DNA of 64,000 bases, from positions 1,302,001-1,366,000 of the forward strand of contig NZ_CP109199.1 of NCBI RefSeq assembly GCF_036250065.1. Direction: 5' to 3'. Below the pieces are notes generated by a model that did no database searches, had not been told where the DNA came from, and saw only the letters and a list, made by a program, of their open reading frames with translations. This DNA comes from Micromonospora sp. NBC_01699. GTDB taxonomy: Bacteria > Actinomycetota > Actinomycetes > Mycobacteriales > Micromonosporaceae. Below are positions 9,792-56,594 of the stretch, piece by piece. A program made the translations under genes and the position numbers. The first letter of the stretch is position 1; the number at the start of each line of letters is the position of its first letter.

Positions 9792-9845
9792 CGTGATCAG
9801 GGAGAGTTTGGCCGGTCATAGCGAGCCAAACTCTTCGCGATCACG
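9792..9845. repeat. Intergenic palindromic element P1
   Basis: Two 21-nt arms (9792-9812 and 9825-9845), 18 of 21 positions complementary, surround a 12-nt loop. The inner 10 bp (AGAGTTTGGC) and the outer 7 bp (CGTGATC) pair perfectly. The outer CGTGATC is also present as a direct copy at 9774-9780. It lies in the 328-bp gap between the DUF397 gene and the methyltransferase, after a true terminator, so termination alone does not explain it. No gene is seen in this gap. Confidence 0.8.
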
Positions 9846-9993
9846 GGCGCGCCCACCGGAGGTACGCGAGACAGCGGCTGGAGCGCGAGTGCGGCGAGGT
9901 GCACGTCCCCCGCCCGTGGCGTGAAGTGGCGACCGCCGTACCCGGAAGGGATTTTCCGTTGCGGCGCGGGCCGGCGCGGTCGAGACTGCCCGG

Positions 9994-10758
9994 ATGAGCG
10001 CGACCCCACCGACCTTCGACGAGCTTGTCGCCGAGGGCGTCGCAGTGCCGGTGGACGGCTGGGACTTCTCCTGGTTCGTTGGCCGGGCCACCGAGGAACG
10101 CCCCTCCTGGGGCTACTCCCGGTTGCTCGGCGACCGGATGTCCCGGGCAACGGCCGCCGTCGATCTGCAAACTGGCGGTGGTGAGGTGCTCGCCACCATT
10201 CCCGAGCCGCCGCCGCTGCTGGTGGCGACCGAGTCCTGGCCGCCGAACGTCGATGTCGCCCGGCGCAACCTGGCCCCGCTCGGGGGGCGCGTGGTTGCCG
10301 CCGCCGACCGGTCCGAGCTGCCGTTCCGCACCGGCGCCTTCGACCTGGTGGCCAGTCGGCACCCGGTGGACACCCACTGGCCGGAGGTGGCCCGGCTGCT
10401 GCGCCCCGGCGGCACCCTCCTCTCCCAGCAGATCGGCCCCGGCACCGTCGGCGAACTCGCCGAGGTCATCGCCGGCCCGCTGCCGGCCAACCCCCGCCGG
10501 GGCACGGCGTGGATCGCCGCCGAGGCCGGGGCCGCCGGCCTGGAGCTGCTTGACCTGCGCGAAGAAGCCCTGCGTACGGTTTTCCACGACATCGGCGCGG
10601 TGGTCCACTTCCTGCGCAAGGTGATCTGGATCGTGCCCGGCTTCACCGTCGAGCGCTACCGTGACGAGCTCGCCGCGCTGCACCGGCGGATCGAGGCGGA
10701 CGGCCCGTTCGTCGCGTACGCCCGGCGGATCCTGGTCGAGGCCCGCAAGCCCCACTGA
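9994..10758 (+). CDS. Class I SAM-dependent methyltransferase
   Basis: A 254-aa protein with a Rossmann-type methyltransferase core. Motif I is visible as [10 protein letters not shown], a following acidic end to strand 2 as VATE, the [16 protein letters not shown] stretch matches motifs II-III, and [16 protein letters not shown] matches the post-core helix and strand. The C-terminal half ([16 protein letters not shown]) resembles small-molecule methyltransferases, but the substrate is unknown. The ATG start is followed directly by a typical acidic N-terminus. It is monocistronic and converges on the DUF1772 gene across a minisatellite. Confidence 0.85.
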
Positions 10759-10774
10759 CCCGGACCCGCCGGAC

Positions 10775-10884
10775 ACCCCCCGTTCCCCCGTTTCCCCCGT
10801 TCCCCCGTTTCCCCCGTTTCCCCCGTTTCCCCCGTTTCCCCCGTTTCCCCCGTTTCCCCCGTTTCCCCCGTTTCCCCCGTTTCC
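10775..10884. repeat. 9-bp minisatellite (CCCCCGTTT)n between convergent genes
   Basis: A tandem array of CCCCCGTTT. Nine units are in perfect register from the GTTT at 10807 to that at 10879; two shortened units (CGTT) lie at the left end. It begins 17 bp after the methyltransferase stop and ends four bases before the end of the DUF1772 gene. One strand is pure pyrimidine apart from G. No coding role is apparent. Confidence 0.95.
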
Positions 10885-10888
10885 TGGG

Positions 10889-11392
10889 CTACCGCTGGCG
10901 GTGCCACTGGTAGATGCCGAGGCCGATCAGGAGCAGGCTGACCAGGCTGGCGGCGGCGCGTACCGTGTTCCAGCCGGTCCAGCGGGACGAGTAGTCCGCC
11001 CAGACCCGTGCCGCCTCCGCCGGATCGGCCGGCACCGCCGTCGCGGCGAGCAAATCGTTCAGCGGCACGTTGACCGCCACGGTCAGCAGGAACGCGCCGA
11101 ACAGGTAGACGGCCGCGGCGAGCAGGAACAGCACCGCCGCCGGCCGATGCCCGAGCACCAGCAGCAGCACGCCGGTCAGCGTCGCCGTGACCACCGGGCC
11201 GAAGAACGTGACGAAGAAGAGCGGATTCTGGATCTTCACGTTGATGCTGTTCATGGCCCGGATCGCGGAGCCCCCGCCGATCGCGTTCAGGCCGGGCATC
11301 ACCGACACCGAGTACGCGTAGTACAGGCCGGTGATCGCCCCGGTCACCGCCAGCGTCACCGCCGCCGACCAGGCCGCCAGGGTGCCGGTCAT
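10889..11392 (-). CDS. DUF1772 (anthrone-oxygenase-like) membrane protein
   Basis: A 167-aa protein with four predicted membrane helices (about residues 8-28, 60-82, 85-107, 143-162). The N-terminal [18 protein letters not shown] and conserved [13 protein letters not shown] segments are typical of DUF1772, a family that includes anthrone oxygenase-like proteins. The ATG overlaps the stop of the NmrA-like gene (ATGA), so it is the second gene of a two-gene operon. The pairing with an NAD(P)-binding NmrA protein under a divergent AraC regulator suggests an inducible redox or detoxification function; this is inference. Confidence 0.8.
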
Positions 11393-54796: not shown

Positions 54797-54846
54797 GTAC
54801 GCTTGAACATGCTTTGTCTGGATGTCGCACGAGAGCTGGAGTATTG

Positions 54847-56340
54847 ATGAGCGCGATCGTCCTGCCCTCGTACGACGACGTCGTCGAGCGGTACGAGCCG
54901 GTGGTCGGCCTGGAGACCCACGTCGAGCTGGGCACGAACACCAAGATGTTCTGTGGCTGCCCGACCGACTTCGGCGGCGAGCCGAACACCCGGACCTGCC
55001 CGGTCTGCCTCGGCCTGCCCGGCTCGCTGCCGGTGGCCAACAAGGCGGCGATCGAGGCCACCATCCGGATCGGCCTCGCGCTCAATTGCAGCATCGCCGA
55101 CTGGTGCCGGTTCGCCCGGAAGAACTACTTCTACCCGGACATGCCGAAGAACTTCCAGATCAGCCAGTACGACGAACCGCTCTGCGTCGACGGTTACCTC
55201 GACGTCGAGGTGCAGGGCAAGACCGTCAGGATCGGCATCGAACGGGTGCACATGGAGGAGGACACCGGTAAGTCGCTGCACGTCGGCGGCGCCACCGGAC
55301 GCATCCACGGTGCCACCGAGTCCCTGGTCGACTACAACCGGGCCGGCATCCCGCTGGTCGAGATCGTCACCAAGCCGATCCCCGGCACCGGTGCGCTCGC
55401 CCCCGAGACCGCCCGCGCGTACGTCACCGAACTGCGCGACGTACTCCGCTCGCTCGGCGTCTCCGACGTACGGATGGAGGAGGGTTCACTGCGCTGCGAT
55501 GTGAACACCTCCCTCAACCTGCCGGGCGACGAGTGGGGCACCCGTACCGAGACGAAGAACGTCAACTCGCTGCGTTCCGTCGAACGGGCCGTCCGCTCCG
55601 AGATGCTGCGGCAAGCCGCCCTGCTCGACGCCGGTACGAAGATCATCCAGGAGACCCGGCACTTCCAGGAGGACACCGGCGGCACCCGTCCCGGCCGGTC
55701 CAAGGAAACCGCCACCGACTACCGCTACTTCCCCGAGCCGGACCTGGTGCCGATCGCACCGGACCGGGCCTGGGTCGCCGAGCTGAAGGCCGCCCTGCCC
55801 GAGCTGCCGCGCGTACACCGCCAGCGGCTCCAGGAACAGTGGGGGCTGTCCGACCTCGACATGCAGTCCGTACTCAACGCCGGTGCGGTCGAGCTGATCG
55901 AGCAGACCGTCGCCGCCGGCACCACCCCGGCCAGCGCCCGCAAGTGGTGGCTGGGCGAGCTGTCCCGCCGGGCCAACGAGGCCGGCGTCGACCTCGCCGC
56001 GATCGGGGCCACCCCGGCCCAGGTCGCCGAACTCCAGCGCCTGGTGGACGAGGGCAAGCTCAACGACAAGCTCGCCCGTACCGTGCTCGAAGGCGTGGCG
56101 GCCGGCGAGGGCAGCCCGACCGAGATCATGGCCGCCCGTGGGCTCGGCGTCGTCTCCGACACCGGTGCGCTCACCGCCGCCGTCGACGAGGCGATCGCCG
56201 CCAACCCGGACATCGCCGCCAAGATCCGCGAGGGCAAGCTCGCCGCCGCCGGCGCCCTGGTAGGCGCCGTCATGAAGACCACCCGAGGCCAGGCCGACGC
56301 CAAAACCGTACGCGACCTGATCCTGACCCGCCTGAGCTAA
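54847..56340 (+). CDS. gatB: Glu-tRNA(Gln)/Asp-tRNA(Asn) amidotransferase subunit GatB
   Basis: The 497-aa subunit that phosphorylates the tRNA-bound Glu or Asp and transfers ammonia. The N-terminal domain has [37 protein letters not shown] (two zinc cysteine pairs) and [17 protein letters not shown]; the C-terminal helical Yqey-like tail is [17 protein letters not shown]. The start ATG at 54847 has GGAG upstream. It completes the operon, and the convergent metallophosphoesterase lies beyond palindromes P6 and P7. Confidence 0.97.
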
Positions 56341-56416
56341 CTGACCTCGGCTGACTCACCCCCTCCGCCCCACCCGCTCGACCCGCGCGGGTGGGCTGCG
56401 GCGGAGGTTCACGCAG

Positions 56417-56468
56417 ATGTAGAGAAGGAGTGGTTACCCCTGAAGGGGTAACCACTCCTTCTCTACAT
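56417..56468. repeat. Intergenic palindromic element P6
   Basis: Perfect 25-nt arms (56417-56441 and 56444-56468) with only GA between them, giving a 52-bp hairpin. The outer arm begins ATGTAGAGAAGGAGTGG. Unlike the other elements it has no GATC. It lies 76 bp after the gatB stop and may also act as its terminator. Confidence 0.95.
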
Positions 56469-56528
56469 GAGGCCCCTGCCCTGCCCCGTGCTCGCGGCCG
56501 TGACTCGGGGTGGGTGGGTGTTGTTGCT

Positions 56529-56594
56529 TCGTGGATCTAGGGCAAATGGGGGCGCGTTGATCTCTGATCGCCACCATTTGCCCTAGATCCACGA
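56529..56594. repeat. Intergenic palindromic element P7 (intact form of P2)
   Basis: Perfect 21-nt arms (56529-56549 and 56574-56594), arm start TCGTGGATCTAGGGCAAATG, with a 24-nt interior. Positions 56556-56589 are identical to 13345-13378 in P2. It lies 60 bp right of P6, 23 bp before the end of the convergent metallophosphoesterase gene, next to a G-rich tract. Confidence 0.95.

Follow-up and report, generated by a model that had tools for sequence, protein, structure and literature searches.

The window analysed here is a 64,000-nucleotide stretch (C1:1302001-1366000; 71.8% G+C) of the 8.28-Mb single-contig chromosome of Micromonospora sp. NBC_01699 (genome G000), and it contains seven palindromes (P1 to P7) that can be classified into five families, A to E, by the sequence of their arms. 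Copies of these families are dispersed around the chromosome, and in four of the five families one gene, lying outside the window and predicted to encode a nuclease, is flanked on both sides by the family's own palindrome. The seven palindromes, to which no strand is assigned, are as follows (window positions):

P1, 9792-9845: family D, CGTGATC.../...GATCACG, between two rightward genes
P2, 13322-13379: family B, CGATCTAGGGCATAT...ATTTGCCCTAGATCG, between convergent genes
P3, 24000-24059: family A, perfect 30-nt arms, between convergent genes for a GH5 cellulase (22332-23963) and a luciferase-like protein (24078-25061)
P4, 44607-44683: family C, CGGCGATCTTGCACTTGTGG..., rightward genes on both sides
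P5, 46878-46938, with pairing that extends to 46872-46944: family A, with the arm of P3, behind an ADP-ribosylglycohydrolase gene (45945-46865), rightward genes on both sides
P6, 56417-56468: family E, ATGTAGAGAAGGAGTGGTTACCCCT, without GATC, between convergent genes
P7, 56529-56594: family B, like P2, with gatB (54847-56340) on the left and a leftward gene (56617-58302) on the right

The initial annotation, made from the sequence of the window, had placed inverted repeats at these seven positions, and all seven are present. Its observation that GATC lies one to five bases inside the outer end also holds, for six of the seven palindromes (P6 lacks it), as does its observation of a rightward gene to the left of each one; by our own gene calls P2, P3, P6 and P7 occupy convergent gaps, and P1, P4 and P5 lie between rightward pairs. 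The count of five different arm sequences among the six GATC palindromes has to be corrected to four families: the arm GTTGATCATGAAGTTAGCG is common to P3 and P5 (family A), GATCTAGGGCAWAT and the right arm ATTTGCCCTAGATC are common to P2 and P7 (family B), and P4 and P1 represent families C and D. The fifth family, E (P6), is the one without GATC. In P2, the TAG is the stop codon of the rightward AraC-type gene at 12328-13329, with a PAP2 gene convergent on the other side. Rfam gave no match within the window.

Dispersal and placement of the palindromes

Genome-wide in G000, the arm patterns of families A, B, C and E match 64, 128, 116 and 37 times, respectively, and the reversed control patterns match 0 times each. 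Hairpins and lengths were counted in a sample that combines the window with 80 stretches of 20 kb each (1.664 Mb in all, with the region from 3.3 to 5.0 Mb of the chromosome outside it); this sample contains 120 hairpins scoring at least 15, against 0 in 844 kb of Markov-shuffled sequence. The most frequent repeated arms in the sample are those of B (24 loci), C (14) and A (9). The copies are also of constant length: among copies selected for arm similarity under a tight mismatch limit, the distance from GATC to GATC is 56 nt in 23/23 B copies and 69 nt in 15/15 C copies, and in family A GTTGATC and GATCAAC bound a span of 60-61 nt in 9/9 copies. GATC is invariant in these copies of A, B and C, although the copies were found with seeds that themselves contain GATC.

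Copies lie mostly behind genes. Of 47 A, B and C copies, two are inside called genes and one is at the end of a stretch; the remaining 44, classified by our own simple gene calls, fall into convergent gaps in 24 cases (these gaps make up 13.7% of intergenic bases), tandem gaps in 15 and divergent gaps in only 5, where 13.6 are expected. Exact family A hairpins also occur in Micromonospora species and in 'Micromonosporaceae bacterium KJ-029'.

Comparison with two sister species, G001 and G002, reveals both retention and loss. At the orthologous places in G002, P1, P4, P6 and P7 are retained, and the arms and loop of P1 (family D) are preserved despite diverged surroundings; at the matching places in G001, P5, P6 and P7 are absent. 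The arms of P3 are preserved in all three genomes while flanks and loop diverge, and in G001 they carry a paired change, TTAGC/GCTAA to TTGGC/GCCAA, that maintains pairing. At one place between convergent genes where G000 has a B element (L047:16614-16725), G001 has an E-type hairpin instead.

A few features of the elements and their surroundings are recorded here in their own right. Family C arms often have one C.C or G.G mismatch at GATCTTGCA[C/G]TTGTGG, and in P4 (window 44611-44679) the two mismatch versions are swapped between G000 and G002, with the direction of the loop unchanged. C-rich tracts to the left and G-rich tracts to the right of many elements (window 44529-44628 and 44662-44761; P2, P3 and P7) lengthen the apparent arms, and such tracts are possibly a general feature of convergent gaps in this genome. 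Between the gene end at 9480 and P1, a hairpin like that of an intrinsic terminator, followed by T's, lies at window 9684-9719 (AAGAAGCCCCC...GGGGGCTTCTTTTT).

Predicted nuclease genes and their flanking palindromes

Matches to the A arm usually lie about 43 nt apart, and one pair in G000 lies 1.1 kb apart. This pair encloses a gene for a protein of 305 amino acids (with a start codon of our choosing), the stop codon of which is within the right-hand palindrome. A search of G000 with the encoded protein (the A protein; E 1e-6) gives four members, and a search with the corresponding E protein (E 0.001) gives the same four, each with the same palindrome family on both flanks:

A-A, gene at 7848189
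B-B, gene at 23016 (within the 400-bp flank limit only with its start codon matched to its G001 orthologue)
C-C, gene at 961849
E-E, gene at 2279468

Among 697 sampled control genes of G000 of 600-1500 bp, 139 have at least one flanking hairpin, one has hairpins on both sides and none has the same family on both sides, so that the comparison is 4/4 against 0/697 (Fisher p ~1e-10). The A gene gave rise to the hypothesis and is therefore no independent test of it; those of B, C and E were found by searching with proteins or Pfam profiles. In this way the common processing or binding activity, with a co-occurring gene family, that the initial annotation had proposed for the palindromes is matched by four paralogous genes, each bracketed by a different palindrome family. 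The candidates named there fared otherwise: a REP-associated (repetitive extragenic palindromic) transposase of the RAYT (REP-associated tyrosine transposase) class was rejected as partner since PF01797 has 0 matches in G000 at E 0.001 (5/14 control genomes match), and a Dam-type methylase since PF02086, the D12-class adenine methylase profile, has none in G000, other methylase classes not having been searched. The partner activity is not tied to GATC, because a partner gene of this kind also accompanies family E, which lacks GATC. Outside this set of genes there is a small DUF559 frame (145 amino acids open) at G000:C1:4204878-4205123.

Judged from profile matches, the protein is an AbiEi-like amino-terminal region followed by a Vsr-like PD-(D/E)XK (DUF559) nuclease domain. 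In Pfam the A protein alone matches AbiEi_4, MTES_1575, DUF559 and AbiEi_1, all weakly and only DUF559 just above its cut-off. Across 21 aligned members, DUF559 (PF04480) and MTES_1575 (PF18741) are found in 21/21 at E 0.01, AbiEi_1 in 12/21 and AbiEi_4 in 10/21; one member, L201, is marginal for the nuclease profile (21.4 bits, cut-off 20.6) and just below both AbiEi cut-offs. The invariant columns include E204, R208, D237, E248, G251, H255, D264, R267 and T282 (A-protein numbering), and among these E204, D237, E248, H255 and D264 form a conserved acidic/His set. Against the PDB, the family profile matches an endonuclease-like protein (3hrl, 4.6e-7) and, weakly, a 'Mobile intron protein' (3r3p, 0.078), unlike the single A sequence, which gives no match; NCBIfam gave no useful match for six members.

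AbiEi antitoxins are described as binding to inverted repeats ahead of their own operon. Since PADLOC AbiEi models match all 21 aligned members, the palindromes might be operators: the AbiEi-like protein would bind them and repress its own gene, the dispersed copies would be regulatory sites or decoys, and the nuclease part would have another role. We consider this unlikely. The second copy of the palindrome is at the 3' end of the gene, over the stop codon in some cases, and the dispersed A, B and C copies are in the wrong place for operators, as they are rare in divergent gaps (5/44) and frequent in convergent ones (24/44).

The same layout recurs across genera. A search with the A protein gives 104 matches in 30/41 genomes, of which we examined 27 loci in 14 genomes (the four G000 genes included), hand-picked mostly by rank; for five of the 27 the flanking palindrome was known beforehand (the G000 genes A and B, the orthologues of A in G001 and in G002, and the C1 gene of G008). 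A repeat is shared between the two flanks in 17/27 loci, in 16 of them with a score higher than that of any of 400 G000 control genes (maximum 43) and in one (L203) as B-B from the hairpin list; outside G008 the figure is 17/20. Hairpins scoring at least 12 occur on both sides of 13/27 loci. The arms differ from gene to gene, for instance GATCAAGGGAACGGC in G010, GATCAAGAGGTTTG in G005, AGTCATACGTCAGGTACCTCAA twice in G003 and a AGACGCAAAAG-type hairpin twice in G043, which belongs to another family of the order. In 6/27 loci (L203, L207, L208, L209, L211 and L213) the stop codon of the gene is the TGA of the TGATC at the foot of the 3' repeat.

Ten further loci from other Actinomycetota, comprising all the distinct loci matched in plasmid-labelled records, come from Nonomuraea, Tsukamurella, Arthrobacter and Streptomyces and extend this range: a repeat common to both flanks is found in 7/10, with scores of 56-145 in windows slightly longer than those of the G000 control. 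Hairpins of the same family on both sides are clear in L229, L233 and L236 and weak in L234, and L231 has one hairpin plus a match to it on the opposite side. Four flank repeats searched in 72,556 records of the plasmid collection occur in the same organism only, at 20, 7, 10 and 12 places, where a palindrome may count on both strands. The A protein itself has no match among phage and plasmid records, nor in viral contigs; more distant members are present in 10 records labelled plasmids, some of them chromosome-sized.

Gene and repeat also co-vary to some extent among the sister species. The family C gene is present in G000 and G002, with 116 and 113 arms, and in G001 no gene was found and there are 0 arms. 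Likewise, the family E gene accompanies 37 arms in G000, and G001 has no close gene and 0 arms. For family B, a gene and 128 exact arms occur in G000, and a gene and 13 exact arms in G001, where the flanking copies bear a variant arm. The family A gene is present in all three genomes.

Our preferred reading, to which we assign a probability of roughly 0.6, is that these are dispersed REP-like palindromes, each main family of which belongs to its own nuclease gene, in a partnership similar to that of a REPtron (a REP family with its RAYT gene) and involving an unrelated nuclease. The partnership of repeat and gene is established statistically by the doubly flanked genes, and the nuclease would be the agent that spreads the repeat. 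The AbiEi-like part may recognise and bind the arm, the nuclease part may nick or cut the outer tip or its immediate vicinity, and the palindrome would then be copied into new intergenic places by repair or strand transfer. GATC would remain constant as the half of the recognition site that related nucleases have in common, with the remainder of the arm diverging in step with the protein. Copies would be retained mostly behind genes, where hairpins may be tolerated or useful as 3' ends.

Several observations weigh against this reading. Family D has no partner gene that we could find, and comparison of the sister species yielded no clean empty site with an exact junction, the intergenic DNA being too diverged. 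In G002 there are 42 family E arms, and the matches to the E protein reach no more than 28-39% identity, the flanks of three of them being unread, so that E in G002 is either an exception or has its partner among these matches; the same genome has 17 exact B arms and no B gene among the matches to the A and E proteins, the B protein itself not having been searched. In G008, 0/7 genes have the same repeat on both sides (an upstream hairpin is present in 5/7, three of the GATCATTG type). No hairpin is seen in G040, G021 has a single hairpin, with a score of 41 for the repeat shared by the flanks, G023 has a hairpin on one side only, and two members in a stretch of G032 have a hairpin only at the 3' side, at the stop codon. 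Among the ten further loci, L228 and L237 have no hairpin and L232 has one on one side only. The shared flank repeats of L211, L213, L230 and L235 are not good hairpins, and the control genes for flank repeats all come from G000.

Two other explanations bear on the dispersed copies. AbiEi and nuclease domains are found in defence systems, and several copies persist across species of the genus; both would agree with a selfish, toxin-like pair in which the nuclease attacks DNA that lacks or carries the palindrome, and the repeats, tolerated or protective, are kept by the threat of cutting and without active copying. This leaves the genome-wide dispersal with a family-specific length (B in 23/23, C in 15/15) unexplained, and we regard it as quite unlikely. 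Alternatively, the palindromes could be ordinary bidirectional terminators or hairpins at mRNA 3' ends, with the tip and the flanked genes coincidental. The strong bias towards convergent gaps, the B site that carries an E-type hairpin in G001 and the pairing of P3, kept through changes on both sides, all agree with such a role. Terminators would explain neither the doubly flanked genes (4/4 against 0/697) nor the match of one family to one gene, which makes this a very improbable account of the whole; termination may well be a secondary use of copies spread as in our preferred reading.

GATC at the tip

GATC is common in G000 (7.44 per kb; 12,387 occurrences in the sample against 11,862 expected from a Markov-2 model), and the chance that four families of five would carry it at the tip is about 1e-5 if the families are independent, but their independence is improbable. 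The initial annotation had proposed the tip as a rule and had named equality with the background rate over the full set of palindromes as evidence to the contrary. In the G000 sample, with the tip defined as within 7 positions of the outer end, GATC is found in 42/242 perfect-arm hairpins when every copy is counted, against 12.3 expected (rank 12 of 117 tetranucleotides). When distinct arms are counted once, it is found in 5/161, against 8.2 expected (rank 77 of 83), a count that omits the B family and would fairly be 6. Another distinct-arm run, pooled with other genomes, gave 5/140 for G000 against 7.0 expected; in the pooled set GATC tips number 23 against 14.0 expected (rank 21 of 132), and outside G000 they number 18 against 6.9, but the other genomes contribute loci selected for family A as well as a stretch of G032 selected for its B match. 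As a rule for all palindromes, the GATC tip fails on the distinct-arm counts in G000. GATC is enriched per copy and not per distinct arm; the tip is a property of certain dispersed repeat families and not of palindromes as such.

Which families carry the tip can be listed: A, B, C and D do; E does not, nor do family F of the sister species G001 (GCGTTAACAAGGGGCCCTTCCTT) and two families of G017. The latter, with arms GTGCAGTTTCGGGGAAAGTGCAGGAATC and CATTGACGTTGGCCTATCCAGAG, are repeated hairpins found in several copies within 100 kb (L178-L182). A further palindrome family without GATC, GTTAACAAGGGGCCCTTCCTT-like, was seen in G001 (L155, L158, L160 and L162), G019 (L192), G032 (L200) and at L129:7888-7935, and similar hairpins occur in several genera.

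The 100-kb stretch of G032, a member of another genus of the same family that was chosen for its B match, contains at least 5 GATC-tipped hairpins with different arms (GATCAAGGGCAAACGG, GATCTTGGACTTGTC, GATCTTGAAGTTGTC, GATCAAGGCGTCC and GATCTAGGGCAAATCC). A half-site GATC-WW-G-NNN-WW, read by eye, fits these hairpins and families A to C, a few of them inexactly, and D less well; this suggests one diverged superfamily rather than unrelated arms that share a tip. Clustering of arms by shared 8-mers was abandoned, as unrelated families became chained together. On a tree of 29 proteins, the presence or absence of GATC in the flanking palindrome requires 2 changes against a shuffled mean of 7.0 (0/500 shuffles as low), and with stricter labels (23 labelled rows) 3 changes against 7.4 (1/500 as low), near-copies in the tree favouring this result. 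GATC is best regarded as the element that palindrome families with related nucleases have in common, and not as a universal rule.

The constancy of GATC in families A to D could also point to GATC-directed methylation or restriction. We consider this extremely unlikely, since PF02086 has no match (the only methylase class searched), GATC is not depleted in the sample, and family E has a partner gene without having GATC.

Comparison with REPtrons and related systems

As described in two sources (PMC8266576, PMC3733652), REPs and their TnpA-REP/RAYT genes form REPtrons, in which short palindromes occur in many copies mostly behind genes, the gene is accompanied by its own palindrome, several families and partners may exist per genome, and recognition co-evolves. 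The palindromes described here are likewise dispersed, extragenic and mostly behind genes, and the partner gene is flanked by its own palindrome family (4/4 in G000, 0/697 controls). The differences lie in the enzyme and in the element. The enzyme here is a predicted AbiEi plus Vsr-like PD-(D/E)XK protein, whereas RAYT is an HUH Y1 transposase (PF01797, without a match in G000). The elements are about 50-70 nt long, have no unpaired GTAG foot and carry the tip GATC inside the stem. GTAG occurs near the foot in 0/9 A, 0/23 B, 0/15 C, 0/3 D and 4/5 E copies; in the latter, the arms start with (A)TGTAG and GTAG is within the paired stem, as at window 56417-56468. The agreement of the family E GTAG with the tetranucleotide of RAYT-type REPs may be due to chance. 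The system works like a REPtron and is not a RAYT system, because it has no match to a Y1 enzyme and no unpaired GTAG tag.

A second group, the CGTC-tagged REPs, consists of palindromes without a dedicated transposase that have stems of 8-9 bp and an unpaired CGTC end, according to section 6 of PMC3733652. CGTC is found just outside GATC in some B copies and only there; in general, the bases outside GATC vary here (CGTC, CGCG, CGTT, CGAC, CGCC and others) and are often paired. In the text of PMC3733652, the words Micromonospora, Streptomyces, Salinispora, Frankia, Actinobacteria and GATC are absent.

The protein also has relatives among known nucleases and antitoxins. EDxHD homing endonucleases are akin to Vsr. 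By its DUF559 match and the profile matches to 3hrl and, weakly, 3r3p, the nuclease domain probably belongs to the same superfamily as Vsr-like and DUF559 nucleases. EDxHD is listed among homing endonuclease families in PMC6083498, and Caulobacter VsrA is described as a candidate mismatch-repair enzyme in PMC12907096; we found no description, there or elsewhere, that pairs such nucleases with dispersed palindromes. The amino-terminal region resembles type IV AbiEi antitoxins in that it matches AbiEi models, and differs in that it is fused to a nuclease domain and has repeats on both sides of its gene. No AbiEii toxin gene is annotated beside the seven named loci that carry annotation; the neighbours of the G000 genes were not searched for AbiEii.

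In the open-access literature searched we found no work that links dispersed palindromes with nucleases of the DUF559 or AbiEi type; the search did not extend to most subscription papers and preprints, so priority is unproven. A nuclease with a quite different fold, encoded between copies of its own palindrome in Micromonosporaceae-like genomes as well as in Tsukamurella and Arthrobacter, would account for the origin of such repeats in actinomycetes and would assign a function to some of the unnamed DUF559 family. In addition, it would supply many natural enzyme-palindrome pairs for tests of recognition, and the spread of REP-like repeats would become directly testable in a new system.

To our knowledge, only one enzyme class, the HUH transposases of the RAYT kind, has been connected with dispersed palindromes in bacteria, and many repeat families are without a known partner. 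On balance we lean, by a little, towards a second and independent invention of the REPtron in Actinomycetota, in which each AbiEi-Vsr-like nuclease would be specific for the palindrome on its flanks and would copy it around the chromosome, with several paralogues per genome that each have their own repeat family, enzyme and arm co-evolving, and GATC as the part of the site common to one branch of the enzymes. The pairing of AbiEi-DUF559 proteins with palindromes could be called a new kind because the fold of the enzyme differs from that of the sole enzyme class known to us to be associated with such repeats; by a stricter grading, it could be called a variant of the REPtron kind.

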